Shown here one piece after another: positions 3,796-42,887 of a DNA stretch of 64,000 bases. Each line of letters starts with the position of its first letter. Position 1 is the stretch's first letter. The notes beneath the pieces were generated by a model. The model was given only the letters and a program-made list of their open reading frames with translations. It was not told where the DNA came from and ran no database searches. Source of the DNA: Pocillopora verrucosa (taxonomy: Eukaryota; Cnidaria; Anthozoa; Scleractinia; Pocilloporidae); the NCBI RefSeq assembly GCF_036669915.1, contig NC_089320.1, positions 2,705,129 to 2,769,128 of the forward strand. Reading direction: 5' to 3'. A program made the position numbers and the translations under genes.

Positions 3796-6700
3796 TTATT
3801 TCTTCCCCCTTCTCCGGGCCGCTGTGCGAGCCCTTGATCTTGCCGTCAGGTTGCTGCCTGCCCCTTGCGGAGTGCTTGGCGCCCCAAATGCTGGTGCAGG
3901 TGTGGGTGCGGCAAAACGACTTCCCGACGCACCACCTGGGGCGAAGTTGAAACCCCCACTGGGCGCAGGTGTCGCGGGCACAGCTATGAAAAAAAAAGGA
4001 TGGTGAAAAAATTACAATAGATTTCTACACGACTGCGAATTTTAATGGAGCTCAGAAAATTAGAGGTTAAAATTACAATGCGACTTTCTACTACTTAATA
4101 TAAAACTCCTTTCTCCATGCAATCAAGGGGGAGGAAATTACTGGCATGAACTGAAGTGGGGAGGGGGAGGGTGAGGGTGAGGGTGAGGGTGAGGGGGAGG
4201 GGGAGGGGGGGGTGAGGGTGAGGGGGAGGGGGAGGGGGAGGGGGAGGGTGAGGGTGAGGGGGAGGGGGAGGGGGAGGGGGGTAAGGTACTTTTCCCCAAA
4301 CCCCCGTAGCTTCATCTGGGGCTCTGCCGGCTGTGAAAAATCAAAGGGTGGGAACCCCGGAAGTCCTGATGTACTTACCCGCAGGTGGAGCTGTTGCTTG
4401 GCCAAACTGCCCGAAGCTACTGTTACTCGCTGAAGAGCCTGGGAAAAAAAAAGGCAATGAAAATTCAGTGAAACAGGGTAAGTGAAACTGCATTCGAAGT
4501 TATCGAAATTCAGAAGACGAAGAGAAGGTTTAAGAGCAGATGACAAGCCTAGCATGGTGACCAGACAATGAAAGGAAACGTCTTTAAAACCATGCCAACT
4601 TTTGACAGAGTTTCGCTTAAAAAAAAGAAAATAAGGAATAGAGGAAACTAACTAACAAAAGCACAATCATCCTCTGAATGAGAAACTGCGCACCTGCCCC
4701 TCCCCTAACACAACAATAACCCTAACTTGTTATCAGCTGATTATTTTGGGTTAGGGGAGGGGTAGCAACGCATTTGCTCACATATTAGCATTGATTAAAT
4801 TTTTCACTATTCCCAGATCTTACCAAATTGAAATCCTCCTGTTTTGTTCGCAGCGCCACTGAAATTAAAACCCCCGGGTGTTGGGTTATTTGCCGTCGTA
4901 TTTGCATTGAAACTAAATCCACTAGAAGCCGCAGCATTCTGGGAAGGCGCTGCTCCAAAGGTGTTCTGGGCACCGGCACTGTTTCCAAACCCATTGAAAG
5001 GGGACTTGGAAGCGTTTTGCGACGTATTTGCAGCAAAAGCGAACGGAGATGATTTCTGGCTAGGAGCTTGTCCAAAAGCACCTTGGGTAGTTTTTTGGTT
5101 TGGCTGAGTTCCAAAGTTAAACTGTGTCGATTGGGTACCAAAAGCATTATGGGCACTACTTTGATTTGGATTCGGTCCAAATACATTTTGATTCGCCTGG
5201 TTTCCGAAAATATTTTGTGTGGTTTTCTGCTGTGAACCAAAAGTATTTTGCAAATGCTGAGCACTCAAACCACTTTGAGGAGTCTTTTGACTTGCGTTTA
5301 GAGAACTGTTCGCGTTTTGCGCTCCAAACGTATTTGAAGAAGCTGGCTGGTTTTGCTGTTGCACTCCAAAGGCACCATGGCTAGGATTCGCTCCAAACGC
5401 ACTCTGGGAAGCATTCTGGCCAAATGTGTTCTGGGTAAACGGACTTTGTGTGAAACCTGAAGCTTGAGGAGTGTTTTGTGAAGGCTTGGCCCCAAAGCCA
5501 TTAACACCGAAGGCAGAACCAAACGAAGTTTGACCTTGTTTTCCTGTTACAGGTTGCATGTTACTTACACCAAAAGTGCCTTTGTTTTGGGTTGTTGATG
5601 CAAGGGAATTCTGAGGCGCCGTGGCACTCTGCCCAAATACATTTGTCGATGGAATCGCAGTTAGAGTAGAGCTATTTTGCGTAGTTTCGGTTCGTTTTCC
5701 AAACGGACTTTGCAGTGAAGCAGCTACATTGCCACTTGCCAACGACCCAGAAGTTTGGGAAGTATTTTGTCCTAAAAAGAAAGTACTTGAAGAATTCACA
5801 GAGGTCGTAACCTGAGTATTTTGTGTTGACTTCTCACCAAAGACAATCTTTGTACTATTTGAAGCTGAAAAATTGAACCCTGCTTGCCCATTGGTTGAAG
5901 CGTTGGACGGCGGCATCCCAGATACGCTCGACGAAGAAACTGTGGAGAAACTAAACCCAGCTTTTTGGGAAGAAGTAATATTTGTGTTCAAAGTTGGTGG
6001 GTTAGTTGTTGCCGGCTTAGCGAAGGGCGACGCCCCAAATGAGGAAAATGAAGAAAGCTGGAAACCTGAGGAAACTGGTCCTGTTGTAACAGTCAAACTT
6101 TGCGCTGGGTTTGCTTGTGACTGGACAGGAGCAATTGATGAGCTTGTGGGAGCAGCCTTTCCCTGTTGTGAAGTAGGAATTTTTATTCCTTCACCTGTCA
6201 ACGCCGTAGACAGCCCAGGTGTACCTGACGGTTTAGAACCCAAATCAACTCCTGGTCGCTGTTGGGATAGTAACGCACGCAAAGTAGAACTTTGGGATTG
6301 CGTAGCAGTGCCACTGCCGTGAATTACGGGATTGGAACTAGAAACACTTGATGAAGGGACCTGCTGATCACTTGTGGTCCTTCGAGGATCTCCCAAACCA
6401 AGGGTTGGGGCGATAAGGCTCTGGGCAGTAGTGGTAGTTATTGTCCCTCTGCTTGTCACAACACCTGCAGTAGGGACCTTGAATAACGAAGCTGAGGTCG
6501 AAGTAGCCGCAGCTGAAGAAACCGTTGTCGTATCTGACAAAAGAACATAAACGAGAATCCTAGCTCATGGCAGTTATTCCACTTACTTTTGCGGAATTTT
6601 CGTTTAAAGAAAAGAAGGAGCACTATCTTGAGTCGACAGTCAACGGGAGAGGTCGTTAAGTTTCTCGTGTAAGGAGTGGAGAAGAAATTTGTCATTTAAC

Positions 6701-13232: not shown

Positions 13233-14037
13233 ATGAAAGTTTCTTTAAAGTTTTTCCCAAGTTTCCTTGTTTTTTCCTTGCTTCTGGTTTCATTTTGTTG
13301 CGTTGAAGGGCAAAAGAAAGACAGCAATGGAGCGCAATTCAAGCGTAACAACGAACGCATTCCACGGCAATGCATGCGGATAATCTGGGCAAGGCATAGA
13401 AAAGCTAAATGCTCTTCTGTGAAGAGAAGGCTAAGAAAATTACAAGCAGTGGTAAGTAAGTTCTGTCGACGACCTTGATTTAAAGAGTAAAGAGTAAATC
13501 AATTCTGTTCTAAGTAAACAAGAATCAGGGCGGGCACCGCTATTCCTAACCAGGTGAAGAACATATATCGTATAATAAGTTTTATCTACAGAAAAGACGT
13601 TTCTGATATCAATGCCCAAAAGAGAATGTATCTGCTTAATTACAACTCATTAAACAAAGAAATAAATATGGAGCTAAACCTTAAATTTCTATCGGATGTC
13701 TCCCCCTGCAAATTCAAGAAAAATTGTTTCAAAATTTTTAACGAAAAAAATTGAAAACAAATTGTTTGTTTTATTTTTCATTTTGTTTGTAGCAAATTCA
13801 CTCATGAATCGCACATCTAAGGTTTTGTCAACCATGGAACAATTTTAAAAAGAATCTTCCAGTTTAACATGATAAAAGAAAGGACAAGTTTCTAAAACGG
13901 AATTTAATTTGTTTTGGTAATGCTAGATGAACAAGCCTCCTATTGAAGATTCACACGGAGGAGGAGGAGAATTCCAAAGAGCGGAAGCACTGCTTAAACA
14001 AGCGAAGAGAGGGAGATCAGGAATAAATAATATGTAA
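13233..14037 (+). CDS. Small secreted two-cysteine prepropeptide P1
   Basis: Exon 1 is 13233-13451 (73 codons, phase-0 donor GTG|GTAAGT). Exon 2 is 13927-14037 (acceptor TGCTAG, stop TAA); together 109 aa. A signal peptide covers residues 1-26 (hydrophobic FLVFSLLLVSFCC, likely cut after VEG). A short Lys/Asp-rich spacer leads to Lys-Arg, then a core with two cysteines, CMRIIWARHRKAKC, followed by a basic Lys-Arg-Arg run. Exon 2 adds an acidic, Gly-rich then basic tail (QAKRGRSG). The core shares IIxxRxRxxxC with P2-P4 but has two extra residues after the first Cys and lacks Gly-Thr-Arg, so P1 is the divergent member. Expected fate: secretion, dibasic cleavage and a one-disulphide ring. Function unknown; peptide hormone/neuropeptide or cationic host-defence peptide are the two readings. 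Confidence 0.7.
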
Positions 14038-14203
14038 TGTTTGTATAAAACAAACAGAGAGGATCGATTATAATGAGTGTTGGAAAAATTTGGGAATCAG
14101 AAATTACTTGAATATGAAAGCAAACTCAAGTTTGTTATTTGAGTAACATGAAATCTAACGTATAAAACTTAACAAAATTGATTATGAATCAATGTTGATG
14201 TCC

Positions 14204-14209
14204 AATAAA
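14204..14209 (+). terminator. Poly(A) signal of P1
   Basis: AATAAA 167 bases after the P1 stop, with a T-rich stretch following. Confidence 0.5.
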
Positions 14210-14298
14210 CTTCTTCAAATTCGCCCCTTGTTCTTCAATTCAATGTGTATGTCTTTTGCCATAACTGAGATCAGGGTACGACATCAATGTCTCAGCTG

Positions 14299-14540
14299 TT
14301 GGAAGCCGTGTTGGCCTGATGCCTAGAGCAGATTTCGCATTTATCGAGAGGTCCTGGGTTAGAGCCTTAGCAAGGTGCTTTTGTCATGCTCTTGGGCAAG
14401 ACACTTTTCTCCCAAAATGTCTCTCTCCACTCAGGTGTATAAATGGGTGGTAGAGAGTAAAGGTTGTACAGTGGCGGAAACTACATACGGATTGAGAGTC
14501 TTCTAAAGACTTGTGAGTTGTTTTCAACTGAATACAGTGA
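14299..14540 (+). mobile_element. tRNA-derived SINE-like element
   Basis: Head with 'ggcctgatgcctagagcaga' and a B-box-like 'gtcctgggttagagcc', then 'cttgggcaagacacttttct' and 'caggtgtataaatgggtggt'. The CTTGGGCAAGACACTT block resembles the conserved central domain of several metazoan SINE superfamilies (from memory, unverified). Confidence 0.6.
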
Positions 14541-16344
14541 AAGCCCTTCGTAATTAAGACGTCCAAAATAGTCCTAGATTTTTATTTTTCAAAGCTCTTA
14601 CCTCATCCAAAAATCGTTTTCTGTCTATTAATAAGGCTGATGCGAAACAAGAAAGCAACTGGCACTTCTCTTCTCCAAGATGGATCTTAAAACTGCCAAT
14701 TGATAGCGAAAGGTGGGCTAAGCCTTTTTCCCTATCAGCTTAATGGTGAAACAATGTATAAAGTAGGAATCCAAAATAACTATTTGATTGAATTTGGCAT
14801 CATAATCTTACTCAAACATCGAGTAACGTTAAAAATTTGCCGTCTAAGATAAGGTCGATTTCCCAGAAGATCATGTGCGTCGTTTTTTGGGAGTTAGAGA
14901 CCTTCAGTAAACCGCGGCAGCGAAAGGGAAAGAGAACAACTCTTAGGGATTCGTTGAGCATAACAATGGCTCAGTATCATCGTCCTAGAGCATTGTTTAT
15001 TTTCTTGCTCCTTCTGTAAAACGACGACGTGAAATCTTCAAAATTTGTGTGATCTGAGAGCAGAAACCTCGATTGCTTGTTGATAACTTTCCTATTTGGA
15101 ACTCAATGCTGCTTACACAATGATAGAAAATGCTTATGTTAAGACGAGATACCGTAAGAAACAGTAAACACATCTAAACACATACAGCAATTTTCGAAAA
15201 GTGTTAGTTCATGTTTTTAATCGATGTTTTCCGTGGTGTTGTAGTCCTGTCTGCACGAGGTAATTTGGTTTTATCAACTGAGTTGCTAATGCAACTTGGC
15301 CGATGTAAAAAGCTTTTGAAGCTGACGTATCGAGTGTTACGCCCCTGTCTGCCCAAGTTTCTTCTACGACCATGTTTACGAGCAAAACTAAGCTTGGTGT
15401 TTTTTTTTTCTTGCTTTCATGTTTCAGTTTCAAGACAGCCTTTCTTTCATCACACTGACTGAGAGGGATAGTAAGAAATTAAAATCATTGGTAACAATTT
15501 TTCAGTACATTAAAATTATAATGATATAAATGGCATACAGCGGAGGTTCCGAAGATCATCAATTGAAACTTCAATTTAACAAAGCAGAGATACATTTAGA
15601 AAGCACCGGGCCTGCTTCGGCTCTGTTTGACAAATCGTTACAATTGTTATGTGGTTAAAAGTGAGTAACGCCTTGTAGAGCTGAACATTCAGTCAACACC
15701 TTCATCAAAAGTTTGATATCCAACAGAAGGAAATAAATGCATTATTCTCAAGTACTAACAGATGAAACTTTTCGCTATTTCCTTTTGATCACCTCTTAAA
15801 TGAAATTCGGTCCAAATGGCAATCTTCTGTCACAGTGAGAAGTGTTACCACGTAATTAATACATATAAATTAGTATTTTCGGGGCGTTGAGCTTGGTAAA
15901 TTAAATTGGAGAAGGGTCTATTGCTTTTGAGTGGTTAATAATCTTAACTGCACGATCAATAAATATTCTTCACAACTGTAACAGTGGGGTTGATTAAGGC
16001 TGTTCAGTTTTACAGACTCGGCGGTAACTGAAAGGCAACCTTCACGACCGCTCCAGTTGATTTAATATAACTTTTGACTATCAAAAGTTCGAATGTTAGA
16101 GTTTTGAATTTTTACCGAGTAGCATGAAAGTTGTGAAGAATCCTAACTGTCGTATTGGGAATTTTTTTAGTTTTTGCCAGGGAAAAGCGTTGTGCTTCAA
16201 GATTACTAAAGGTTACGTTAAGGACTAATTATAATCTAGAGATTTTCCGGTCGACAAGGTGAAGTCGATTGGCACTACTCATTCGTTGGGTTTATCAGGT
16301 TTATGAGTAAGATAATGGATAGATAAATTGAACACATGCAGGAA

Positions 16345-16527
16345 TCAGCGTATTTCTTTAATGCATTCATTGCACTGTTTCTCGTAGAATAGAGGAGCAG
16401 CAGTAAGTAACATTTCAAGAAGGGCTGCGAAGTTGTCACTACGTAGATTGTAGCAAGGTATTTTTTTGTCGCGATCACACAGCCCATCAATGTTGCTCGC
16501 ATCATTTTTAAGGGGAGTGGAACTTAA
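16345..16527 (-). CDS. Candidate terminal exon of an unrecognised Cys-containing protein
   Basis: Read on the minus strand from an acceptor (TTTATAG) at 16528-16530, this 61-codon phase-0 frame runs to TGA. It looks protein-like: Asn-Ile-Asp-Gly-Leu-Cys, then CDRDKKIPCYNL, an amphipathic Leu/Ala helix (FAALLEMLLTAAPLFYE) and a CxxC near the end (QCNECIKEIR). Four cysteines, no membrane segment. Base composition is richer in G+C than the flanks. No upstream exon could be assigned and no start codon fits, so this would be a 3' exon of a minus-strand gene. A longer ATG-started frame in the same place (76 codons) has poorer protein character. No function can be given; chance coding cannot be excluded. 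Confidence 0.35.
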   Translation of the reverse strand, partial: LSSTPLKNDASNIDGLCDRDKKIPCYNLRSDNFAALLEMLLTAAPLFYEKQCNECIKEIR

Positions 16528-17448
16528 CTATAAATTTGTTGCTTCTAAAATCTCAAAACCTGCTTTATGCCGGTTCATCGACTTCAGTGGACATCAAAGA
16601 GCACGCTAACCCTCAGCAGGTCCTCATTATAAGGGCATCACCTTTAACGCGCGAGCCTTTCTTAGGCGAGAGGTTTGCAAGGGGTTTAGCTCTGAAAATT
16701 AGTGTCAGACCACCGGCAAACCTCTCCCAAACTCGAATTAAATTTTCTCGCGGGAGGAGAAACGCGCGTCTTGGAGCGCCATTGATGAGTGCTAGCTCGA
16801 AAGCTAAGACTATGCTTACTGCTGTTCTTTCGTCAGAAACAAATCAAAATTATATGGTTACACCTAGTTGCCTCAAAATATTGTTACTCATAATTCCTCG
16901 GAAAGCAAACCGAAAAACTGTTTTAACCCTAGTAACCCCTAAACAAGAACACATTTTGAAGTCTCCGTTCCTCGAATAGGCGAAAATACATTGAACGAAG
17001 ACAAGATTTTAAAGGCTTTCCTCTGGGTGTTACGACAGGGGCTCCTTGTTTGGCTGTTGCCTATTTAGACTTTACGCCCGTCTCCCCACCCCCAGCGTGT
17101 GGAATTAGCGATAAAATGCAGGTTTCTTTCGAACCGATGATGTGGCAAAGTCCAAGCTAGCTAAAAGCGTCGGAAAATTGAAAATTGCGTGGAAAACTAA
17201 CTTAAGTGGCTTTAATTCCATGTGAATTCTTTCAGGGGCGCAGGATTATGTCGTAAAATTTAGGTTTTTTACTGAAAGATGTCATTTAATCAAGTCAATA
17301 GTGACAAGTTAACACGTGATTGTATCGGGAGAACACTGTTTCAACATAGGATGTAATTAATGGTAAACTTCTGAGAGCAAAGAAATGGATATTCAACATA
17401 GTAGTTGACGCAGAATTGGAATATGACTTGCTCTTCTTTTATTCTCAG

Positions 17449-17538
17449 CCAAATGACGAAACCACAAGGGATTTGAATGCTTTGCGCACTTTCTACCTGA
17501 GTCAAAAGAAAACCTGCCCTTTAAAACAGATAAATAAG
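17449..17538 (+). CDS. Candidate internal exon
   Basis: A strong acceptor (CTTTTATTCTCAG) opens a 30-codon phase-0 frame with DETTRDLNALRTFYLSQKK and one Cys, ending at the donor AATAAG|GTGTGT, which is also the start of a TG microsatellite. A further acceptor at 17645-17646 (CCCGACAG) would add ten codons, VIETRTSRRT, before a TGA. No first exon was found. It could be an alternative 3' part of P1 (P1 exon 1 also ends in phase 0), an independent gene, or a decoy. Confidence 0.25.
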
Positions 17539-19240
17539 GTGTGTGTGTGTGTGTGTTGTGAGAAAAGGAGCGGTACACAAAACGTATTTTACATCATAAC
17601 TTCTAATTGATAAATAAGTGCTCTGCCGACCTTTCTAACCCGACAGGTCATAGAGACGAGGACCTCACGAAGGACATGAACCATCACTCTGGGAAGATGA
17701 GCACGCAATTCCTTTTAAATGACATTCCTAGTGGACGTCAATGTTTGGTGATTCCATTGCATGATTTTACAACACCCTTATTCCATGATATGATTGGCCA
17801 GAGGGAAAATGCCCTGATACTCTGATTGGTGAAAGATGGCTATATACCGTAATGCTGTGATCCGAGTGGTTTGACATATGTACCCTAACATATCTGCGCC
17901 CTATGCAAAGCTCCGTGGAAACTGCCAAGGCACAATGAGCCTTTCCACTCTCTTATCTACAAACTTGTTGTAAAGTTTCTCAAATTAAAAACAGTGATTA
18001 CATCGAATCAACCGCAAAATTGGACGTTCGATTCACACCTCAAATCAGTTGAAATATAAAAATATCAGTAGCATTACAAAATATCAGTAGAGTCATATTG
18101 CGCACTAATAATTTTTCTTGGCAAGTGCCTCGAAAACTTTTTTACCACGACACCAAAAACAAGTCTTTCTTTTTATCTGTAACGTGTATACCTGAATTAA
18201 GGCTAAATAAGGGATTTACCGTTCCCTAACTTCTTTTTCTCGTATTTTGGCGTCTGGCTTTCGAAATACATCCTACGGTTTTTTTTTTCTGAATGAACAG
18301 AGTATCAATCAAACATGGCTTGTGTGAAGTTGTGTTGAAAACAACACGAGCGAGACCATTGGGGTGTTTTGTGACTGACAAAGAAATCTGATGCACTCAG
18401 AGGTTCGTTGCTTCGAAAATGGAACAAAACCAAAATGTGGATCGTTCAGTGCAGCATTTTGTTGCTCAGCTTTCCGTCCATATTTCTACCCTATTCTACA
18501 ATGCAATACCATGGAGTATTTTTGCACGTTCCGATATCCTAATATGGTAAAATGACGTAGAAGTGAGATAATAAACTACGTAAGAACATTTTGCGCTCTT
18601 TTCTGTTTCCATTCCCACGAGTACCATTTTCTTTGAGGTAATTGTTTCAAAGGTTCCGCTTGCTTGAAATAACCTTCGTGCCATATGAAAATCAATGGAA
18701 AAACACTTAAAAGGGGAACGTAGAAATACTACCATGTCTTATTTCCTCGAACAATGCCGCTTTAATTAAGATCTATTCAACAACTTATAAAAGATCCTTT
18801 ACAATTAAAAGCATAAATATTCAGAAAAGAATTGAAGCGGCTCCCACATTTTTCTTCGAAACTCAATCATTTTGTACCCTTCAAAGAAGAATGTCTTTAA
18901 AAAAAGCGGTTTTATATCGAGAAAATTCCGTTTAAAAATGTCACCCTACTTTCGTGAACTACGTTTCTCGCAATTACAAATATCTCACCATTATTCGCAA
19001 GGAAGGATTTTGTTATTCACAAAAAGACAGATGCCTTTTGTTAGCCTCAGCTGTATCGTTTTCAATTCGTTTCTCTTAATTATGAAAAGGGGAGAATGAA
19101 AGCCTTAGAAGATAACGAAAGTTTAATTGTCGTAATTAGCATTTCTTGCACAATATTAAAGAGAACCGGAATGTTTGTCTGCCAGCTTAAACTTGAATTT
19201 CGCTCAACTTCTAAAGCGTCACTTTGCTAATCTCTTCAGA

Positions 19241-20471
19241 ATGTCCTTTAAGACATGCGCTACTCTAGTAAGTTTAATAGTCCTACTGTTTCTTCTCAAT
19301 CCAAGGTCATCGTCAGTCACAGGTGATAGCGCTAACAACGTAGATCAAAATTCACAAGTTGTCCAACTTTGGCTAAGATCACCATGTGGTGTCATAGGAA
19401 CTCGCTACAGAACGGAAAGATGTCGCCGAAGAGGGAAACGAAGATTTTTCAAAAGGAAAAGTAATGAAAATGGTATTCAACTCCTAGTATAATATTTGTT
19501 TCGAAGAATTTTTGAAAATTGTTATTAAGTTCTGTGTCGGGTATCATATTATGGAGCCGTCAAGCGAGTAAATACCATGGGAACCAAGTTTTCGGAACTG
19601 GCCAATAACAGTGTAGAAAACATGTTTCTTAATTTTTCTCCTTGCCTCAATCATGAACAGAATGGTTTATTTATTCTCTATTCCCGTTTTCCAATTTTTG
19701 AAACGTTTCCATTTTATTGCCTGCTTGCTACTAACAAAAGGAATTAGTTTTTAAATTTATAATAACAGAATAATAATTAGTCATAATATCGTCCTTCTAG
19801 GAGTTTTCTTCAAGCACATGGTACAAGCATAAAACAATTATCCTTATTATCCTTTTTTGGTTGATCTTTCGTGAGACCTCTAAAAGATATGAGGTTTCTA
19901 AAAAAGGTTCTCACTAATCACCGAGGAGGTTCCGAACCCACGAAGAGTCACGAATGTCTCGAACAAGAAGTGTTTCAAAAAGTTGGCAAACGTTGCTACG
20001 AATTTCCTAAGATTTGCGATCTATTTTTACACATCTTGTTAAAGTAAAATGAATTAGATTGACTAATCAGGAGCCTGAGAGTGAGTTAGCACGTGGTAAC
20101 TACAACTTAGAGGATGTCGAAACTGCAGTGTTCTTGAAGCGAGTCAGCTGTGCAGATAAAAACGGAACATGCTCGACTACAAAACTCGACCAAGCTACCT
20201 GAGATATGTCAACAAAGGGGGGAAGTTTGTGAAGAAACCGTTGTTCTGCGTTGAAGGGATATAACGAGATAATTTAGTTTCATCAACTGAGTTGAAAATG
20301 TAAATTAGCCAACGTAGAGTAGAAGGCTGACGTTTCGAGATTAATATGCTTTTGATTCTGACCATTACAATAGTTTATCATAAATCCTCTTTTGTTTTTG
20401 TTTTTTTATCAGATAATCGAAGGCGTGGGGAGGAAGACGAGGACCAACAAACGAACGTGACTGAGTACTAA
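19241..20471 (+). CDS. Small secreted two-cysteine prepropeptide P2
   Basis: Exon 1 starts at the ATG at 19241 and ends at 19460 (AAAA|GTAATG) or 19472 (AATG|GTATTC), both phase 1. Exon 2 is 20413-20471 after TTTTTTATCAG and ends TAA. About 92-96 aa. The signal peptide has the core TLVSLIVLLFLL; the Asn/Asp/Gln spacer follows, then LRSPCGVIGTRYRTERC and RRRGKRR. The Gly-Lys-Arg after the core is a possible amidation and cleavage site, though the preceding RRR could be cut first. The ring has 11 residues between cysteines. Exon 2 encodes an acidic tail (GEEDEDQQ) that may balance the basic core in the precursor. Same strand and architecture as P1, P3 and P4. Confidence 0.7.
20213..20343. repeat. 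Dispersed repeat family A copy in P2 intron
   Basis: Contains 'aaggggggaagtttgtgaag', then 'ataatttagtttcatcaact' and 'gctgacgtttcgagattaat'. Orientation is opposite to copy 1. Confidence 0.6.
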
Positions 20472-22464
20472 GAATGAATGACATAAAGAAACACGGACGA
20501 AGTCGAATTCCATAAACCTATTACAGGATCTTGGCATTACAAAGGAATCTACAGAAAAAAAAAGGGGAAGGAAGATTGAAAAAAGGAAGTCTGTACCACG
20601 GATTTTTTCCCATCGAAAGATGACGAATATAAAAACATTTACCTAACTATCCGGACTGCTGTAACGAGAATTATTTCAAATTTTGTGTTCTTGGTTTATT
20701 TAAATTATTAATTTTTGGGAATTGTCTGTTATTTTAATAATGAAAAGTTCAATTCGTATATTTTTACGCCATTCAGCAACGATGTAAACTCATTCTAATC
20801 AAAAAATGTTTAAAAAGGTAAAACTATTAAATACTATCACTATTATTTGATAATCAAATGATTCAAGTATTCAGCTTTCCGTCAGCTACTCCTTGTATTT
20901 TTTTTTAAAAATAATTTTTCAACCCTTCTTAACAAGGGTTCCTATCGCCGGTGGTTCCTGCATCTATTTTATTTTTGTTTCCTCTCAGGGGCTTGTTTAC
21001 CCTCGAAATTATTGTTAAAGGTTTCATTCATTTTAGGACAATTTTCAGCGAACCAAGACAAAAAAAAAAGCTCGGTAAAACGTAGTAAAGGTGTTGTTAA
21101 ATACACCAGCAATGCTTCGCAAAATATCAGCAACAGGGCTGACAACTGAAAGCAGAAATGTGCTATAATTTTAGTGAACTTATAACTTAAGATCAATATT
21201 TTTGTGGGCATGTATAGTTTTTTTTAAAGTAAAAAAGCTATCCACGGCCGGACGGGTCTGTTTACCCTCTTGAGAGACAAGCTTCTCATCTATTCAGACA
21301 ATACTGCATCATAAAACGGGCATCTTGATTTTTATCTACAAGTGTTTTGGTGTAGGGCGCTCATAATCCAATACTTCCTCACTGTACAATCCTCTCAATT
21401 ATGAAAGCCTTGCCAACAGGTGGTTCGATTGTCTTTCACCAAGTTTCATTTTTATTTCCTTATTCAAGGAAATATGGCAAGGTGTCATCTCAGCATCTGT
21501 TAACATTTCCGAGGTCTGATGGTTATCTAATGAACTTAGCTTCAGCAAAATCAGCAGCTGTACATGACGAGCCACTTACCGTCAAAAACCACGGTTCGCA
21601 ATATTGTCATCCAGTGTTTCAGCGAAACAGCGTTTCTTTTCATGAAAGCTTTGTGTAAAATAACACATTGCCATCGCCGCTTTCACCTCTTTCAAGACAA
21701 AGATCAATCGATAAAAAACTCTTTATACTAAAATTGACCAACAAAAATTTCCTTACAATGACTGCCATTTTGTTGCTTGAGGGAGAAGGCTCTCTCGGTG
21801 TAAGGATTATTTATCAAAAATGTGGACCCAATCTATAGATGAACAAGTCCTAAGTCACATCGGCGCTAAAATTTTGCTTTTATTTCCACCACATTTCAGT
21901 CGTTAATAATTTCCTCACAAGTAAATTTACCATTAAAGCCTACCACGCTGATGACCCAACTAAAGAACTCAGTGAAAAAGAAAAACAAATTCCCTATTCA
22001 AATTTACTCCGTGTCAATCTCCGCCTCAGTTCCCTTAATTTTTACTTCGATCCTCTCTTGATGGCGGTAATTTTCATCCTTTTGATGACAGAAATTTTCA
22101 TTCATATAATTATTCTCCAATACTCACTCACTCAAGACCTTTTCTAAGACCCGTTTTCCATTCAACAGTTCTTTCCCTTGATATTTGATTTTCTTCTTTC
22201 TTCCCCTCAAACATTTAACTTTCCGGTGACTTTGGAAGGGGTAAATTAGTGGAGATCCTGTGCACATCCCATAACACTAAGAAAGTCTTGAGATAAATGC
22301 AAACAAAAGTTATTGGATTTCAGTTGAATTAAAATGAAAGGAACCATAGATTAATAACTCGCTATCAACGGCGTCCATTATTAACGTCCTGTCGCGCCAT
22401 TTGTCAAAATTTAATGATAGCGTTCATGATAAGGTAATATTGTACTCAATAAGAGCACAGAGAG
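20472..22464. other. Intergenic between P2 and P3
   Basis: AT-rich. It contains a minus-strand ATG frame of 80 codons at 20969-21211 with a hydrophobic stretch but no family features. Nothing else is supported. Confidence 0.45.
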
Positions 22465-22473
22465 TATAAAATA
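22465..22473 (+). promoter_or_regulatory. TATA box of P3
   Basis: TATAAAATA lies 111 bases before the P3 start codon, consistent with a core promoter and a short 5'-UTR. Confidence 0.55.
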
Positions 22474-22575
22474 AGTTGAAATCACACCGACGGGACATTC
22501 AACAGAACAGTGCTTCTTAGCCACAAATTTCATTAAGAGTCTTGTCTTTGATTCTTTGATTCAAAAAAAGCCAAT

Positions 22576-23563
22576 ATGTTACAAAAGACTTCTCTTTTTC
22601 TCTTTTTAGTTGTAGTTCTATATCTCATGAACGCATGTTTCTCTCTGGAAGACGACGAAAGATTTATGTCATCAAAGGATGAAGAAGCCAAGGTTTTTCA
22701 GTTAAAGCCGAGGAAGAGGTCTCCGTGTATTATCGGCACCCGATATCGCAGCAAGCATTGTGTAGGAAAGAGATTCTTCAAGGCTCAAAACCTCAAGGTA
22801 TGTCTACGGCTATTCTCTGCCTCTAAGATGCATTAAAAATAAAAAAAAAATCACTTTTCATTAGAACCTACTGGCTATCATTTTTTTTAATTCAATGACC
22901 TTGTCTGTTAGTTCCAACCGTTAAAAAAGATTGCACCCTCGAATCTGCTTTATTGCGAATTGAATTGGTTTCAAACGAGGGAAAATAATGGTACTCTATT
23001 TTTTCCTCTTGCTTCAAATTAAAAACAGCGATGTGCCTTTCTTCATAACCGATTGATTCGAAACAAAACTATTGGTGACCCATATTACGCACGGGTGCTT
23101 TTCCCGCGAAAAGGTTTCAGACGGTTGATTGGTTCTGTCATTCTTTTAGCTTTTTTTATCAATATTGATAGGTTTATTTCTAAACTTGTCTTAATGTATT
23201 TCGCGGTTTGATTCTTAATTGTGCCTGGACGATTCCTTTGAAGTTTCGAATACTTTTCCAGCTTCGAGAAGATATACGGTGAAATGAGATATAACTACAT
23301 TGTAGTAGGAAATGGACCGGTCGAGTGCACCTTTAGACATAGAGATGTCTGTCCAATCATAGTGCCGTTTCAAAGTAAAAATTCTAATAATCCCACAGAA
23401 GGGATCTTGCGGTTTTTCAGCGTGTTCACTCTTTTCACAAAGAGCTATGAATCTAAGGAAAGTTTTTATATATTAACTCAGAGATAGAAGGAATCTTTGG
23501 AGAAGTTAGCGCGCTTTTCTTTCGCAGAGTGCCATGGAAAACCCAGGCTATCTAGCTCCGTAA
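22576..23563 (+). CDS. Small secreted two-cysteine prepropeptide P3 (predicted amidated)
   Basis: Exon 1 is 22576-22797 (74 codons, phase-0 donor CAAG|GTATGT). The signal peptide covers residues 1-23 (TSLFLFLVVVLYLMNACFS). An acidic spacer (LEDDERF...DEEAK) precedes Lys-Pro-Arg-Lys-Arg, then the core SPCIIGTRYRSKHCV, then Gly-Lys-Arg. Dibasic sites on both sides with Gly before the second are the textbook arrangement for a C-terminally amidated peptide; here it would be 15 residues with one disulphide (10 residues between cysteines). Exon 2 is uncertain. Best guess is 23528-23563 after CTTTCGCAG (12 codons to TAA); an alternative acceptor near 25436 gives seven codons to TAA. The stop-bounded end used here is therefore provisional. 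Confidence 0.7.
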
Positions 23564-23595
23564 ATGATTTTAGAACTGGAAATGGGTACGAAAGA

Positions 23596-23762
23596 CAATT
23601 GACCTCCAAATTTAACCTCAAATGATTCCTGAGGAGGTCAACAAATGAACCTCAAATGAAATCACAAATGAACCCGCACCTCAAATGATCCTCAATTAAA
23701 TTGAACCGCAAATGATCTTTCTACCGCAAATTACTCTAAAGGAGGACCGCAAATGATCCCAT
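23596..23762. repeat. Irregular short tandem repeat 'aaatgaacctc/aaatgatcctc'
   Basis: About ten imperfect copies of an 11-14 base unit built on CAAATGA followed by CCTC or CCGC. No coding sense. Confidence 0.65.
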
Positions 23763-26700
23763 AGAGAAATCTAAAATGGCGTGGACAAAAGGGCGAATAA
23801 TGGAACACGTTATGTGTGACATCAAATGTCGGCGGTTTCTTATCGATTTTAGCGTACATCACCATCGTGGGAAAAGAAAAGAGGGACAAAGGTGCAGAGG
23901 TTGTACAACAGATATCAGTCTGCTTGTGTTTTAAGAAAGAAAACGTCGGAGGCAACGGCTCCAAAAGCATCATCAACACTTCATTTCTTGCTTTCGTGCT
24001 CAACACTGAATGGGTTTTAGTTCATATCGTTGCAGATTTATATCGGCAATAGCATTGTAAATCACTGATATTAACCCTCAACTAAAAGGAGACTCTTCGA
24101 TTATTACAGGAATCATAAAATTAGAAGTTGATTGTCGTTTGATTTCCAATTATTTTTGCGCACGCAAGCCATCTATCGATATCAAATCACTCTGTTATTA
24201 GAAACACATAAAGTCCATTAAATTGACGACTTTTGGATTCGAAATTTAACAATGCGACAGGATAAATCAAACTTTTGATGCTGTGTGCAATCCACTCCCA
24301 ATAAACACATTCGATTTCATATACCTCATGTTATATGTAAGCAGAAGAATTAGGCTACCCAACGTTATTTGATGTTTTCAGAGCATATTTCATTTACAAA
24401 TAATTTGCACTGGAAAGCAATCGCTGTATTAATTCAAATCATATTTTCAAATTAATCCTTTCTCTAAGAGGGTAACAAAGGTAGTTCTTGAAGGTGGGGA
24501 GGGGAGGGCTGATCTCGTTTCACGAATTTTAGAAATATTTAAGCGTCGCTTACACTTTAAACAGCATTTCACGCGCCACAAATTTTAAAGGGAAAACTTT
24601 TAATCTCTTTTCTAGCGCACGAAATTTCAGGAAAATCTCGAGGGCTTTTACGAAACGAAATAACAAACTCACGGGTCACGTATATTTCAGGAGGTAAATC
24701 ACGCCTCACGCTGACTCATAGATGCACGAATCACGTTCGCCTTCTGTAAAATTCACGCGTCGCATATTAAATGTAGCCCTGATCACGCGTCAGTTCTCTA
24801 CTCTAGTTTCTTATTAATTAATTAGTCTATTTTACTTCGAGTTTACTTTGATATGAATCAGTTGTTTGTAGAGCTTTAGAAAAAAGAATTATGGGTCATT
24901 CGGGTTTTTTCTTTAATCAACGGTATCATTTGCGTAGCTGTTCAGAACCAAAGTAAAAACAGGCCTGCCACCTGAAAGGCGGGAAAACGTGAGCGACTGA
25001 GACAAGATTGATTTTATGTTTGCATCTGATTGGTTGAATCGGTTGGATGAAATTCCTCTACCAATCACACGGCGCAGTAAAGCACAACGAAAAAACCCCG
25101 GATTACTGTCGACAATTGAATAAAAATTCCTGTATGGGAAAAGAAAACCGTTTATATCGGAAAAACTTAACAACTTAAGAAAATCGAAGCTGTCTTTCCT
25201 GTACCTAAGTTTGAATCAGCATTACATAAAAAGAAACATCAAAGGAAATTTTAAAGCAGCTTACTCCTCAAAACCATCTCTATAACCGCTTTGAATTCGC
25301 ATGAACGCAGCATTTCTGAACAATCTCTTTCTTTAGTGCTTGAAATTAAAAAGAAATTTGCTTATGTTAGCTTTAATATGTTTCCATTCCTATTCATTTG
25401 GGTTTTCTTTAGATTACCGAGGATTCAACATAAGGAGCAATCGATGCTGAATGACAGAATAATTAAAAACAGCAATAGAAACTATTTTAAAAGCAACTGC
25501 TACCTCGGACTCCTGAACAAGTTCCCGTCAAGACTGCAATCTACTGATAGCTGTATGTCAAAAAGATCCGTCGGCTCAACACATGAAGAAAGACCGTCCG
25601 CTAGTCATTACTGAATGCATATTGGCGGCAGGAGTCTTATTATATAACAATGTTTTTAGAAATATTGTTCATGAGTATTATTTGTAAAGTAAAACTTAAC
25701 TAAGAAAATAGAATAAAAACTTGATTCCTTATCCGTGCGCTGTGAATGTCCACACGTAGTCGCTAAAAACTTACAGACAAGATTTGTCAAGGTCGGGTTT
25801 TTTTCAACCATTTAACCCTCAGAAGTGATTAACGTGTAATTTCCCCTTAAAATATCCATACGTTATCCAGTCGAAAGGCAATGAGAATACACAAACTTAT
25901 CGGGTAGAAGTTGAAATCTAATCTAACACCAAATTCTCATAACTGATTTACAAAGAAATATCCAGGAACTAGAAAAGAGAATTAACAATAAGACCTCGCT
26001 AGTTAAAGTGTTAAAAATTGGGTATCGATAAAACCGGCCTAACAATCAGGAATTAACGTAAAAGGCGATTAACATCGCTTTAGGTATATGCTGTCAAATT
26101 CGGTCATAAATATTCGATTGAATATTGAAAAAAACCCTCTAAACCTTCATAGAATTCCAGAGCCTCTAAAGACAAACAAAAAATTAATTTTTTAGACAAT
26201 TTTTTTTCTTAGAACTGGACATCTTAGTTGTAGCTGTATTCTGCGATGAAGTTAAAAAAAAATGCCACTTGTAAATGGAAAACGAAAAAGTGAGAAAGCT
26301 GTGGTTATTTTAAAACAGCAAACACGAGAGGCAGTTTTGAATTTTTGACCGATCACTGTAAGTACACAACCGTTTAGACCTCCATAAACAGTTATTCCAC
26401 AGTTTAACAACCAACTAAGTCATTAGATTACGTCTTCGCTACCTTTAAATATTGAGTATAAAAAAATTCATTGGAATTTTTCGGAAAAGAAATGGAACAA
26501 AGGCTGATCAGGACTTTTTTTTTTAATGGTGTTTGAGTCGTTTTATACGTCAATATCCCACATTTAAACAAACATTTCCTGTTGTTAATCGGTTCTTCAG
26601 CCAAATAGACACCAAACTTAATATTACAAACAAACGCGCCTCGTGTGCCGCATGTTTTTTGACCACATTTTGACGTCATTTGTGATCTAGTGCTGAAAAA

Positions 26701-29198
26701 GTGCACGGCAACATGGAATCTGCTTGTTAACTGTCTCCTTTAAACGCAATACCTCGCAGTTGAATCCTTTCGAACGTATTTCGCGAAATACACAATGCAC
26801 ACTGAAAAACACTTCTAAGGTAGAGAAAAACAGACAAACAAAACCGACATTGTTTTCATTTTTTTAAAATATTTTGACACGAATTCCATCGAGTTTTGTC
26901 TACTTCTCCTCTCTCGTCATTATAAATTATATGCTTTTTAGTAAAGAAATTACGATTGTATACAAAAATTATATTCACTTGGTGAAATACTTTAAAAAGA
27001 ACGGTATCTTTGATAAAGATTATTAAACTTATCCAAAATCAGTAAATTTTACAAATTCTATCTTGTTTCTTTGCGGTTAATTTGTCCGAAAATGAAAATA
27101 AAAGCACCAAAATTATACCCTCCTGTCTTTGCGGTTACATTGACTAGAAAAAGTGACTCACAAGGGTTTGGCTTATGGCGGATGTTGAAGAAAAAAGGAG
27201 TATGTTTACTTGGTTAAAAGCGTCATATCTACACCTGTTTTGACGGAGAAAGGCGGCAAATTTAACGCCGCGCCAAATCGTTTTAGACACGGTTGAATAT
27301 CGAGATAACGTTATTCTTTTTCACGGCAGGGTCGCCGTCACTAATTTGCGTCAATCTTCACCATTCCCGACGACCCTTGTATCTCTGTCAGTAGTAATTC
27401 CGTCATCTTCGATTTTTGCCTTGATGAAAAACTGATGAGTCTCTTTAAAGTTTCCTCGCTCCTACCCAAAATTCTTCGTAGGTCAGCCAAATATCAGATT
27501 AAGAAAATTCCGGCGAAGCCTTGTAAAAGAAAAAGGCAAATAGTTATAACAGAAACTTAAAATGAACGTTTTTAGCTCATACTAGTCGGTTGTCAGATAG
27601 AAAACATGAAATAAAAATAGCTTGAGGGTCCGGATCTCATCACAAAGAATACAAAGCAGGCTATGTGATAACAACGTTTATGTGAAAGGTGATATGAATC
27701 ATATCGTGCAATATGTTTCCCAAAAAGAAGGGTTTTCGTTTTGTCATTTACATATCAACAGATTTAAAGTAAGAGGTCGTCTAAAACTATACCAAATTTC
27801 TCAGTGCTAGAATTTACCAGCTTGGCATCAGAGTCGCCGTGGACGCCGACTTAGTTTATTTCAGTGGGTTAACTCATGCTACGCATCTCACTGATTTTGA
27901 CGTTAAACATTCAGGGATTTGATTCAAATGGACACAGAGTCATGATATTTTAGGGGATTAGTCTTATTATTATTTATTACTATCGGCTTTAAATGTCAAA
28001 TCGGAAGAGCAAAAGCCCTTTTATTTGCCAAAATCACGCAAGGCTAAATGAACAAGAAGGATACGTAAAATAAACTGACAAACAGAGATATACTTTAGAA
28101 ACTTCTACCCGGCGACTTAAAGATCGTGGCAATCCATCAAGTTTTGCCAACTTATTATCCGTGATGCTCCGCTTTGTCTTCTGTATGTGTTCAATATCGG
28201 TCCCATAAGTTATCTTTTTTTTTTGTTTTGTTTTGTTGTTGTTGTTTTTTTACGATAGTTAATCTGTCTGTTGTGATCACCGCCTAGTCTGAGCTCATCT
28301 GAAGCAGTCATTGAAATATACATTCTAAACCTGAACGATTGCCTTTGTTCTCTTGGCCGCGCCGTTAAATTGTCCGCGTTTTTCCGTCAAAGCAGGTGTA
28401 TGTATGACGCTTTTCAGCACGTAAAGAACGCCTCTTTTCCTTACTAACCACTAGACGCCAAACTGTTGTACGTCACTTTTTTTGGGCAATGTAGCCGCTA
28501 AGACAGGAGGATAGAATTTGGAACTCTTTTGGTTTTCCACTGTTAGGGCACAGGCAACCGCATTCTGAATCATCACGATTTTTATAAAATAGCAGGATTA
28601 ATGGAACCTGTACTTTCAACTGGTTTTTAAATAGTAGCACAGTTGAGTTCCCCAGTTTCGTGAAAGTCTGGTTCACTCATTCCTCAGCAAATGTAAAACA
28701 TTCAGGCGTTTACTGAAGCAACTACAATTAAGTTCTTGCCGAAAATAAAGCGGGTGCGTTTTAAACACCATGAAGCCTTTCTTATCCTTCATTTATTTTG
28801 AGCCGTTATGGAACATGATTTGGTGGGGTTTATCAAATCAATCATAGTTATTTTAACTTCGGTTATGCCATGAAATGACGAAAGGTTCTTGGCATTAAAA
28901 TAACGCAAATGCAATTTACGTCAAAGAAGTCTCAAAAATATCATTTTTTTTTTTCATCTCTACCTTCGTCTTCTTTTATGGGTAAAAAAGGTGCTTTTTT
29001 CCTCCATCGCACTTCCGGGCCGCTCAGACTGTTTTCTTTTTTCCACAAAGCGGCGCAATTTGTTTTCGCAGTTTCACTTCCGGTTTTTATAGCTGTCGAA
29101 CTTCCGAAGTTGTTACAGAAGGCTATTATCCAACAAATCACGGACGTTAAACTGTTTGCATATCCGCTTAAACAACACGACCATTTTTCCACTGATGG
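23763..29198. other. Long non-coding stretch between P3 and P4
   Basis: AT-rich. At 24540-24790 a run of 'tcacg'-containing segments (cacgcgccac, cacgggtcac, cacgcctcac) looks like a degenerate repeat. At about 26640-26710 there is a fragment similar to the 34386-34561 MITE ('tttgtgatctagtgctg', 'caacatggaatct'). A (TTTTG)n/(TTG)n run is at 28215-28250. No recognisable exon except the weak frame near 25380-25614. Confidence 0.5.
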
Positions 29199-29206
29199 TA
29201 TAAATA
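29199..29206 (+). promoter_or_regulatory. TATA box of P4
   Basis: TATAAATA lies 86 bases before the P4 ATG, in the same relative place as the P3 TATA box. Confidence 0.55.
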
Positions 29207-29284
29207 CGACTTTCCACCAGATAATCCAACATCACAACGTTTTGCACCTAGAGGCCGTGTCAAACGCAGAACAACCAGTGCACA

Positions 29285-29503
29285 ATGACAGTCACGAAGA
29301 TATATATCCTTTACTTCTTCATCGCCACGCTTCTTCTCGATTCCGTGAAGAAATCTGAATGTTCCTCTGATAAATGGACTTTTTCTGGAAAGATGGCAGC
29401 TGGCTTCTCCACTCAAAAACGTCCCAAACGAAGCCCGTGTATTGTTGGTACAAGATGGAGAACAAGAAGATGCCAGAAAAGCAAACGAGCTCTACAACCG
29501 AAG
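29285..29503 (+). CDS. Small secreted two-cysteine prepropeptide P4 (exon 1)
   Basis: Exon 1 has 73 codons and a phase-0 donor CCGAAG|GTACGC. The signal peptide covers about residues 1-25 (YILYFFIATLLLDSV). A spacer follows, then Lys-Arg-Pro-Lys-Arg and the core SPCIVGTRWRTRRC, then QKS and Lys-Arg. There are 10 residues between the cysteines, as in P3; Tyr is replaced by Trp and the ring is very basic (four Arg). No Gly precedes the downstream Lys-Arg, so no amidation is predicted. Exon 2 is unresolved. Candidates are an acceptor at about 30155 (CCTTTCAAG; 11 codons, VFFSDRDWNKN) or one at about 30269 with a longer frame ending at 30384. First-exon length equals that of P1. Confidence 0.7.
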
Positions 29504-29696: not shown

Positions 29697-29852
29697 AAGG
29701 GGTAAGTTTGTAAAGAAACTGTGGTGTTGCGTCGGTGGGAGAGTATAACAGGGATATTTATTATTATCGAATGAGTATATAACGTAAACTGGCCACCGTA
29801 AAGAGTTTCAAAGCTGACGTTTCGAGCGTTAGCCCTTCGTCATTCGCTCTCT
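29697..29852 (+). repeat. Dispersed repeat family A, well-preserved copy
   Basis: Reads 'ggggtaagtttgtaaagaaa', 'gtggtgttgcgtcggtggga', 'taaactggccaccgtaaaga' and 'gctgacgtttcgagcgttag'. The best reference copy in the window for the family. Confidence 0.75.
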
Positions 29853-40951: not shown

Positions 40952-41643
40952 GGTATTCTATATTTTTTTCAGTCACTTGGTTTGACTCATGCTAGCATCA
41001 AAAGACTCAACAGAGTTACAAATGACTTTTTCACTCAAGACGTAAAGAAAGCTAATAACCTTTTTTATTCTGGATAAGTGTTTGTTGTCTTTCACACAAA
41101 GCTTCATCTAACTGTATTTCTACTTGTAAAATATTCAAACCTCCTCTTTAGAGTAGAACTCTTTTACGCAACAGTATTTGTGAATGAAACTCAGACAGCT
41201 TCTTGAGATTGTTTAATCTTTTGACTTGCAAGAGGTCCTTTGTATTTGCAAATAACTTTTAATGCTCTCAATTGAGTGTCAAAAGTAAATGCAGATTACC
41301 TTTGTTCTTATGATAAGAGTAGACAATTTTCATTAGCCTCTCAACCATCAGGTTCAAAATTAAAACCAATCCAGACTAAGTCACCCATGTTTTCTCATCT
41401 GCACCTCAGGCAAATTGTTCATTTTTTACTTAAAATTCCCATTGCCTTCCTATAATATTTTTTCTTAATTATGATTAGCTGTAAGTTGTGACAACTCAAT
41501 CAACACTCAATCAAAAACTATTTAACCCTTTACACCACAAAATCAGTGTGTATTTTCTCTTTACTTCTCTCTACCCAATTCTTATGAGGTGCTGATAAAC
41601 AGTTAAGAGCTTGTTTAGTTCAGTGTTCTCCTTTTCAGGCAGT

Positions 41644-42659
41644 AGTACTTGTTGAGGCTGGATTGCATAAAATTTGTGACATGGTGAAGTCAAATGGGCA
41701 TTTTCATACGTTGTCTGACTTACAGTCCAAGAATATCCAACCCAGGAACTCCCTCTCCTGGCATGGGTTAATAGACGCTATTCCTGTCAATTGGAAGAAA
41801 GAGCTAAAATCTAAGGCGATACCACACACTCCCCCTTTCGACCCTCAGGATTATAACCTGGTTTTAAATTCTGTTAAAGTGTCTTTATCAGAAATGGACA
41901 CCAAAACGTTTTACGAAGCGCATATGTCTGATTTGCGTGAAACCCCACAGCACAGTTGAGATATAACAAAATGCTTCACGATTATTAGCCTGTGTGGAAT
42001 AAGATTTACAGTTTGCCTTTCCAAGTCGCGTTAGATACATATACGAGACATTTTCAGTACAAAATCTTAAATAGAATATTATTTACTAACTCTAAACTAT
42101 TTAAGCTTAAACTGGTTGAGTGACACCTTTATGCTCATTCTGTGATAAGAACGAGGAAACCCTTGAACATCTTTTTGTTTTTTGTGAACACTCTAGAGCT
42201 TTCTGGAAAGAAATCTCTGGTTGGTTACATGAATGCGGTATTGAAACGCTTCCTGATCTAACAGATCAAATTCATATTATGTTTGGCTTATTTGATGTCG
42301 ATAATCACTTTATGCTTTTAAATCACATCATGTTAATAGCGAAGCAGACCATCTTTCTCTGCAGACAGAAATCTATTACCCCAAGCTTTATTATCTTCCT
42401 CGTGCACCTTAAAAAAATTTTTAGAAAAGGAGAATACCTAGCTAAAGAAAAGAAAAAACTAAACCTGCACTTAATGAAATGGGAAAAACTTTTACAATCA
42501 CTCAGCTGAAATAACTCTACCTTGGGTAGCCTTGTATTAATATTTTTGTTTATTTATTTATTTATTTACTGACCTTATACAATTTTATTTACTTTACACT
42601 GCTGTAATTTTTTTTTTTTTAATGTAAAACGGAAAAACAATAAAATATAAAAAAAAAAA
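41644..42659 (+). mobile_element. 5'-truncated LINE (non-LTR retrotransposon) fragment
   Basis: Encodes the tail of a reverse-transcriptase ORF in two broken frames: 41663-41959, then, after frame damage and a stop, 42120-42509. The latter has the zinc-knuckle CSFCDKNEETLEHLFVFC, typical of the C-terminus of LINE ORF2 (zf-RVT). A 3' region with an A-rich tail ends at 42659. Absent from the equivalent place in duplication unit 2. No intact reverse transcriptase. Confidence 0.85.
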
Positions 42660-42887
42660 GTTTTAGCTTTGAAAAAAGATAGCTACATGAACATGCAATT
42701 TCACCATTTGATAAGCAGATCCTACAACAAATCAAGGACATCTCCTCCTCTCTCCCTTATTTTCCACAACATATCATTATATCCAAATGACAGAAGGCGA
42801 GGATCATCTCCACGGTTTTGAAAACTCAGTACATTTAGATGTACACACAAAACTATGCGACTTATATGAAGTATTTAAACAAAGTCT

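Follow-up and report, generated by a model that had tools for sequence, protein, structure and literature searches.

Do the four short open reading frames (ORFs) P1–P4 in a 64,000-nt stretch of Pocillopora verrucosa DNA, here called the window, encode related secreted peptides, and if so, what might these peptides do? All four are on the forward strand, with ATG starts at 13233, 19241, 22576, and 29285, where an earlier reading made from the letters alone (the sequence-only reading) had put them. All four carry a hydrophobic segment at the N-terminal end (Kyte-Doolittle mean over 11 residues, 2.69–3.43), by hydropathy only a putative signal peptide, and have only two cysteines after residue 26. 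The core pattern that the sequence-only reading saw in all four, C-x(0-2)-[IV][IV]-x-x-R-x-R-x-x-x-C, does occur exactly four times in the six frames of the window, at 13371–13412, 19385–19423, 22726–22761, and 29438–29473; 60 order-1 Markov sequences as long as the window average 0.03, and there are no matches in 161,101 bases (~161 kb) of flanking chromosome. Because the motif was defined after the four genes had been seen, the ratio of four to 0.03 overstates the surprise, and homologues are the better test. The features are as follows, with slashes at the predicted peptide boundaries:

13233..13451, + strand: P1 precursor exon 1, 73 codons (ORF; donor GTAAGT, 219 nt, phase 0); signal-like segment, spacer, then ..IPR/QCMRIIWARHRKAKCSSV/KRR
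13371..13412, + strand: P1 two-Cys core, CMRIIWARHRKAKC (motif scan)
13927..14037, + strand: possible P1 exon 2, 36 codons plus stop, speculative (by eye; ..ATGCTAG acceptor, weak pyrimidine tract)
19241..19460, + strand: P2 precursor exon 1, 73 codons plus 1 nt if donor GTAATG is used (ORF, donor scan); ..LWLR/SPCGVIGTRYRTERCRRR-G-KR
19385..19423, + strand: P2 core, CGVIGTRYRTERC, then RRRGKR, an amidation-type site (motif scan, alignment)
20413..20471, + strand: possible P2 exon 2, NRRRGEEDEDQQTNVTEY then stop, speculative (acceptor scan)
22465..22471, + strand: putative TATA-box-like TATAAAA 5' of P3 (sequence)
22576..22797, + strand: P3 precursor exon 1, 74 codons (ORF; donor GTATGT, 222 nt, phase 0); ..PRKR/SPCIIGTRYRSKHCV-G-KR
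22726..22761, + strand: P3 core, CIIGTRYRSKHC, then VGKR, an amidation-type site (motif scan, alignment)
29199..29205, + strand: putative TATA-box-like TATAAAT 5' of P4 (sequence)
29285..29503, + strand: P4 precursor exon 1, 73 codons (ORF; donor GTACGC, 219 nt, phase 0); ..RPKR/SPCIVGTRWRTRRCQKSKR, then a basic site with no preceding Gly
29438..29473, + strand: P4 core, CIVGTRWRTRRC (motif scan)

First exons of 73, 73, 74, and 73 codons had been proposed. The figures hold for P1, P3, and P4, but the P2 donor, either GTAATG or a second GT 12 nt on, leaves 220 or 232 nt in phase 1 (the ORF ends at 19492), so this exon is not strictly 73 codons. Of the acceptors listed, the P2 exon 2 candidate is the nearest and is in the top two by pyrimidine count; the P1 exon 2 candidate acceptor was not listed by the acceptor scan. 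In P2 and P3, the core is followed by a Gly-Lys-Arg that had been overlooked.

The widest protein search found 29 related proteins sharing the core. Two have weak E-values (0.15, and 0.33 for a Porites harrisoni hypothetical protein), and their first parts resemble P0027 (E 4.4e-5). P2 has a near-identical homologue, P0002; P3 is 97% identical to P0001, and P4 64% identical to P0003. The sequence-only reading had named loss of the cysteines and of Arg-x-Arg in relatives as evidence against it; both cysteines are present in 29/29 homologues and Arg-x-Arg in 28/29, the exception being P0019, where Cys replaces the second Arg. Candidates were picked by shared 5-residue words, which favour conserved cores, so core conservation is in part a search effect. 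Judged by sequence, P2, P3, and P4 are paralogues of a real, conserved family, and to that extent the proposed paralogous array of secreted small-peptide precursors stands; P1 is marginal.

The family core may be written [KR]R-S-P-C-x(0,1)-[IV][IV]-G-T-R-[WY]-R-x3-C, with one core per precursor in every aligned row. Counts below are for 32 rows, three from the window plus the 29 homologues; P1 is outside them because it misfits the pattern fitted by 32 of the 33 rows, which itself requires both cysteines, the hydrophobic pair, and Gly. All 32 rows have Thr followed by the first Arg, 31 have the second Arg, and Lys never takes the place of either Arg; at the basic positions after these, residues vary (R, K, E, T, H). 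The hydrophobic pair opens with Ile in 20 rows, Val in 10, and Leu in two. The basic position next but one to Cys2 is R/K in 29/32, with Glu in P2 and P0002 and Thr in P0016; P2 and P0002 also have a Gly directly after Cys1. A gene tree built on 25 rows, the 33 less P1 and seven near-duplicates, puts P4 in a group of nine with P0003–P0005, P0011–P0014, and P0016 (support 81/90); the sole partner of P2, and likewise of P3, is its near-identical homologue, and deeper branches are weak.

Within the whole genome (353 Mb), a P3 query recovered P3, P2 (E 0.001), P4 (E 0.0037), and two chance matches; a P4 query recovered P4, P3, and one chance match, and P2 was not recovered. With these two queries, no members beyond P2, P3, and P4 were found, and there is no related ORF at three weak protein matches (L004, L005, L040). 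The degenerate DNA pattern for PC[IV][IV]GTR[WY]R is matched exactly at just two places genome-wide, P3 and P4; the extra residue in P2 prevents a match there. With up to two mismatches allowed, the pattern had 31 matches and the reversed control 36, and at the five examined of the 29 inexact ones (L008, L009, L010, L012, L015) there is no related ORF. The array lies between a Nup-like gene and the ICMT gene. Between the four loci there is no non-coding DNA match at E <0.09 other than one dispersed repeat near P2 and P4, and a recent tandem duplication as the origin of the array is thus unsupported.

The sequence-only reading recognized no named family, and nor do the searches. In Pfam, the four ORFs and 13 profile members gave nothing above cut-off (CYTL1, FAM209, DUF997, and DUF4489 appeared below it and were set aside); P3 and the 13-member profile had no match among PDB sequences; and a full-text literature search for the motif returned nothing relevant. 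The conserved coral family of predicted ring peptides is apparently undescribed. AlphaFold2, run on P0003 with 13 rows, predicts an N-terminal helix (2–28) and no confident core structure (mean pLDDT 55.8; core mostly <50).

P1 is the divergent candidate. After its core comes SSVKRR, with no Gly, and its predicted peptide would begin with a Gln that follows an Arg, if cleavage occurs there. It has no S-P-C, G-T, or aromatic residue; against an HMM built without it, it scores E 0.031; hhalign gives E 0.003, yet a probability of 10%; and no orthologue of it came up, although only one of the three protein searches included P1 in its query. All this would suit an arrangement in which the family is P2–P4 alone and P1, a small secreted basic peptide unrelated to them, fits the motif by chance, which would be compatible with any functional reading. 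Against it, P1 shares its strand and neighbourhood with P2–P4, its exon length and phase-0 donor are those of P4, its second Cys lies as far from [IV][IV] as in the others, and in the HMM search it ranks 4 of 5695 ORFs, with 2/2000 shuffles scoring as high. (P2–P4 are built into that profile; their own scores are high by construction and are no evidence.) A chance resemblance seems somewhat unlikely: P1 matches the family plan, its sequence match is marginal, and it is probably a member.

Flanking residues suggest how the precursors may be processed. The residue before the predicted peptide is Arg in 31/32 precursors (Lys-Arg in 26/32), and the peptide, if cleaved there, would start with X-Pro in 30/32. 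A Gly-basic-basic amidation-type site follows the core in 18/32, P2 and P3 included, and is absent from P4 and 13 of the 31 other rows. The predicted products have 14–18 residues, one Trp/Tyr, one likely disulphide, and a net charge of about +3 to +8 (for rows with no Gly site, counted on the first 18 residues), or about +4 to +5 for the P3 and P0025 types.

The best explanation, with a probability of roughly 0.62, is that P2–P4, and probably P1, are precursors each carrying one copy of a signalling peptide, cyclic and often amidated; we infer the processing, the disulphide, the receptor, and the signalling role. The signal peptide would direct the precursor into the secretory pathway; cleavage after the basic residues directly before S-P-C would be by a prohormone convertase or furin-like protease; and a second cut at the next basic site, often Gly-Lys-Arg, would yield a peptide of ~14–18 residues, SPCIIGTRYRSKHCV for example. 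Basic residues would be trimmed and a C-terminal Gly, where present, would become an amide. A bond between the two cysteines would form a ring of 12 residues, or 13 in P2, with the N-terminus shielded by X-Pro. With its G-T-R-[WY]-R face, the ring would be the ligand of a specific putative receptor, most likely a GPCR, and serve as a cell-to-cell signal. The preprohormone reading is suggested by mean pairwise identity: the core (KRSPC..C) reaches 83%, against 35% for the signal region, 27% for the tail, and 19% for the spacer (from 20 of the 33 rows, near-duplicates and P1 omitted). Specific recognition fits better than bulk charge, because Thr-Arg is fixed and Arg is never Lys, while neighbouring basic residues vary.

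Several points count against signalling. Conservation of the core is in part due to the word-based choice of candidates, and AlphaFold2 gave it no confident structure; P4 and 13 others have no Gly-basic-basic site; most of the predicted products are strongly cationic, as antimicrobial peptides are; similarity outside the core is weak, and the P4 query missed P2; and basic residues precede the peptide, unlike in the cnidarian neuropeptide precursors described in PMC7523074, whose account has no basic residues N-terminal of the peptide. In favour of signalling, hexacoral neuropeptides are mostly protected in that account, at the N-terminus by pQ or prolyl and at the C-terminus by an amide; the predicted X-Pro start, or the Gln of P1, would be in keeping with this. 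A bioactive non-amidated neuropeptide is reported from Hydra (PMC12440616), so members with no amidation site are no bar to a signalling role.

Charge, together with one Trp/Tyr and one likely disulphide in so short a peptide, and the tandem clustering of small secreted precursors would also fit cationic one-disulphide antimicrobial peptides (beta-hairpin or loop) released onto epithelia or mucus, the array being a host-defence expansion. Exact residues are held, however, with Thr-Arg in every row and no change of R to K at the conserved Arg positions; there are only three clear members in the genome by the P3 and P4 queries; there is no sign of recent expansion, the one non-coding match being a dispersed repeat; and the P3- and P0025-type products reach only about +4 to +5. 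The sequence-only reading had left signalling and host defence level; the balance now tilts to signalling, and defence remains as an unlikely second. In cnidarians, furin-type propeptide sites are found in many small secreted Cys peptides, and the core includes an R-x-R-R-like basic stretch, both of which would suit a venom or gland component (a channel-active or protease-directed cyclic peptide) instead of an internal signal. This is very unlikely: P1–P4 have only the two late cysteines, there is no PDB-sequence match and nothing above cut-off in Pfam, and the core is strongly conserved between distant homologues, whereas many toxins would be expected to diversify. SCRiPs, with eight cysteines, and damicornin/AmAMP1, with six, differ from P1–P4 in the same respect, the latter pair being set apart by description. 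Damicornin (entry 107 aa, PMC11820242) and AmAMP1 are likewise small secreted coral peptides from precursors, and are described as ShK-related; the 13 profile members had no ShK match in Pfam.

Under the signalling reading, the nearest likenesses are to ring hormones and to other cnidarian neuropeptides. In the vertebrate melanin-concentrating hormone (MCH) ring, C-M-L-G-R-V-Y-R-P-C, the hydrophobic pair, Gly, and Tyr-Arg are at the same offsets from Cys1 as in C-I-I-G-T-R-Y-R. Somatostatin and allatostatin-C also have one-disulphide rings; that of somatostatin is also of 12 residues, with an aromatic-basic-Thr stretch, but its Trp is one place off. In ambulacrarian MCH, the small precursor (88 aa in starfish) has a single two-Cys peptide at its C-terminal end, behind a dibasic site; Met/Ile follows Cys1, the residue next but one to Cys2 is basic, and the ring is two residues longer than that of vertebrate MCH (PMC4772807). 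P2 and P0002 depart from this both after Cys1 and at the basic position. The gamma rhodopsin receptor group, which includes the MCH and somatostatin/allatostatin-C receptors, is given as bilaterian-specific (PMC11087051). The MCH resemblance, drawn from described features, is likely to be convergence.

Closer to home, the cyclic FRamides (CxxxMCWFR..) of Scyphozoa and Cubozoa, reported absent from Staurozoa and Octocorallia, are predicted ring neuropeptides of cnidarians, with one cystine and amidation sites of the GR/GKR type (PMC6909153); unlike the coral family, with 12–13 residues, one copy, and a basic site in front, they have a six-residue ring, several similar copies, and another sequence. 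Antho-RWamide of Hexacorallia (PMC7523074) shares small single-copy stony-coral precursors, N-terminal protection, and amidation, and has two or three genes in some species, but is a linear pQ..RWamide right after the signal sequence, unlike a two-Cys peptide after a spacer and basic site.

It is possible, at somewhat less than even odds, that these genes represent an overlooked stony-coral hormone system: a cyclic, Arg-rich, often amidated ligand, SPC[IV][IV]GTR[WY]RTRRC, encoded by no fewer than three diverged paralogues at a single locus, with its own receptor, and an independent, convergent counterpart of the bilaterian MCH/somatostatin-type ring hormones. It would have been missed because the published hexacoral survey needed several similar copies per precursor, the criterion of its neuropeptide script, or a known peptide as query; the coral family has one copy, and single-copy precursors are known in the group. 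None of the seven stony-coral neuropeptide families in PMC7523074 is described there as cyclic, and the words “cyclic” and “cysteine” are absent from its main text; most cnidarian GPCRs have no known ligand (PMC11087051). The definite predicted product allows direct synthesis and testing on coral larvae, polyps, and orphan receptors. If antimicrobial, it would be a conserved coral defence peptide; if a signal, it would give studies of settlement, feeding, contraction, or symbiosis a further class of ligand.

The four small secreted-peptide ORFs begin where the sequence-only reading had placed them, and a six-frame scan of the window with its two-cysteine core pattern, C-x(0-2)-[IV][IV]-x-x-R-x-R-x-x-x-C, returns exactly four matches, all at these ORFs; chance expectation is a mean of 0.03 matches (60 Markov sequences), and the pattern is absent from 161,101 bases of flanking sequence (100 kb on the left side and some 59 kb on the right). 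As the pattern was drawn up post hoc, homologues are a better test than motif counts. First exons of 73, 74, and 73 codons, each with a phase-0 GT donor, hold for P1, P3, and P4, but the 73 codons proposed for P2 do not: its exon is 220 or 232 nt, in phase 1. Several homologous ORFs continue past roughly the P1–P4 exon-end position with V-S-F/L-like residues, as would be expected from read-through of a GTAAGT donor.

Features of the window:
4807-5916, minus: ORF without Pfam match, presumably FG-repeat nucleoporin-like
13233, plus: start of P1
19241, plus: start of P2
22576, plus: start of P3
29285, plus: start of P4
32187-33979, minus: ICMT gene (ORFs within)
40955-49446 and 51438-58870: near-duplicate copies of one large block (94.7% identical over 5.5 kb; two shorter pieces 92% and 97%)
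46154-46369 and 55575-55790, minus: mannose-6-phosphate receptor exon (PF02157), one per block copy
60316-60840: ORF encoding the first part of an ANF_receptor ligand-binding domain (PF01094, E 1.8e-7); may be exon 1 of a family C GPCR
19-158, 20218-20339, 29699-29842, 43429-43583, 44914-45069, 53141-53290, 54339-54504: dispersed repeat (about 140 bp, roughly 73–87% identical, both orientations)

The nucleoporin-like ORF and the ICMT gene flank the cluster. Against the whole genome (353 Mb, 52 contigs), P3 as query finds itself, P2 (E 0.001), P4 (E 0.0037), and two chance matches; P4 finds itself, P3 (E 0.0044), and one chance match, without reaching P2. There is no related ORF at these chance matches. 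The paralogues are probably old, since non-coding DNA of the four loci has no significant shared match except one dispersed repeat. TATA-like boxes lie upstream of P3 and P4 and a weaker TATTAAA upstream of P2, with none within 200 bases of P1.

Protein searches gave one match with P3 alone, 10 among 290 candidates with a five-row alignment (P1–P4 and the homologue P0001), and 29 among 2171 with a 13-row alignment lacking P1; 27 of these 29 have E ≤ 4.4e-5, the others 0.15 and 0.33. P0001 is nearly identical to P3 (97%), as is P0002 to P2 (94% over 66 columns). P4 is 64% identical to P0003, and falls inside a nine-row group in the gene tree (support 81/90). P0029 is a hypothetical protein of Porites harrisoni. 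The earlier reading recognized no named family, and the searches match none: no Pfam family exceeds cut-off and no PDB sequence matches. A full-text literature search with six core fragments, which cannot reach sequences in figures or supplements, found nothing relevant. P0008, P0020, and P0022 form a sub-clade with a CRVSQRKVS tail and no Gly-basic-basic site, followed by a stop in some records and read-through in others, perhaps through splicing or polymorphism. The locus behind one weak protein match (G000:C2:13558443-13561613) has on its minus strand a short ORF that begins hydrophobic and whose C-terminal half contains six Cys; it looks ShK-like by eye and is unrelated to the family.

Across 20 non-redundant rows out of 33, the KRSPC..C core averages 83% pairwise identity, a figure biased upward because the search prefers shared words; the averages are 35% for the signal region, 19% for the spacer, and 27% for the tail. 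The signal-region likeness, though partly composition, adds support. All rows but P1 (32 of 33) fit a pattern of Cys, hydrophobic pair, Gly, and second Cys. Neither Thr nor the first Arg varies among the 32, and the residue after them is Trp (24) or Tyr (8); the second Arg is present in 31 and Pro directly precedes the first Cys in 30. Lys replaces neither Arg in any row, while adjoining basic positions vary.

Against a profile built without it, P1 scores E 0.031, ranking fourth of 5695 ORFs in window and flanks, a score reached by 2 of 2000 shuffles; P2–P4 score far higher, but were profile members. By hhalign P1 has E 0.003, yet a probability of only 10%. Its position, exon length, and spacing are consistent with membership, and it is probably a diverged member.

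Arg precedes the predicted peptide in 31 of 32 rows (Lys-Arg in 26), and 18 rows, P2 and P3 among them though P4 is not, have a Gly-basic-basic site within six residues past the second Cys. P4 need not be inactive on that account, since a bioactive non-amidated peptide is reported from Hydra (PMC12440616). Predicted products are 14–18 residues long with net charge about +3 to +8 (first 18 residues counted in rows without the Gly site). They share with hexacoral neuropeptides, whose protective plan for peptide ends is described in PMC7523074, an X-Pro start and, in many, a predicted amide end, but differ in the basic residues in front and the two-Cys ring. AlphaFold2 predicts no confident structure for the core.

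The ring of melanin-concentrating hormone (MCH), whose ambulacrarian form is described in PMC4772807, offers a comparison. The predicted one-ring SPC..C product resembles MCH in layout, the vertebrate ring included, but the receptor group with MCH and somatostatin receptors is reported as bilaterian-specific (PMC11087051). We read this as convergence and keep the coral peptides out of the MCH family. In a 2022 review (PMC9545775), 12 of the 21 passages touching on cystines, disulfides or cyclic peptides were covered, and these describe no coral ring peptide.

The charge of the products favors antimicrobial peptides of host defense; exact-residue conservation, a single locus, and the cleavage and amidation plan favor a receptor ligand. 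Defense is rather unlikely, and a venom or gland role is more improbable still. We put the chance that the peptides act in signaling, as receptor ligands, at roughly 60%. Such a cnidarian ring peptide would have precedent in the cyclic one-cystine neuropeptides with six-residue rings predicted in Scyphozoa and Cubozoa (PMC6909153, in part). The script criteria given in PMC7523074 (a minimum of three processing sites and of three similar peptides in each precursor, plus known-peptide searches) are ones that a single-copy precursor family of unfamiliar sequence would escape.
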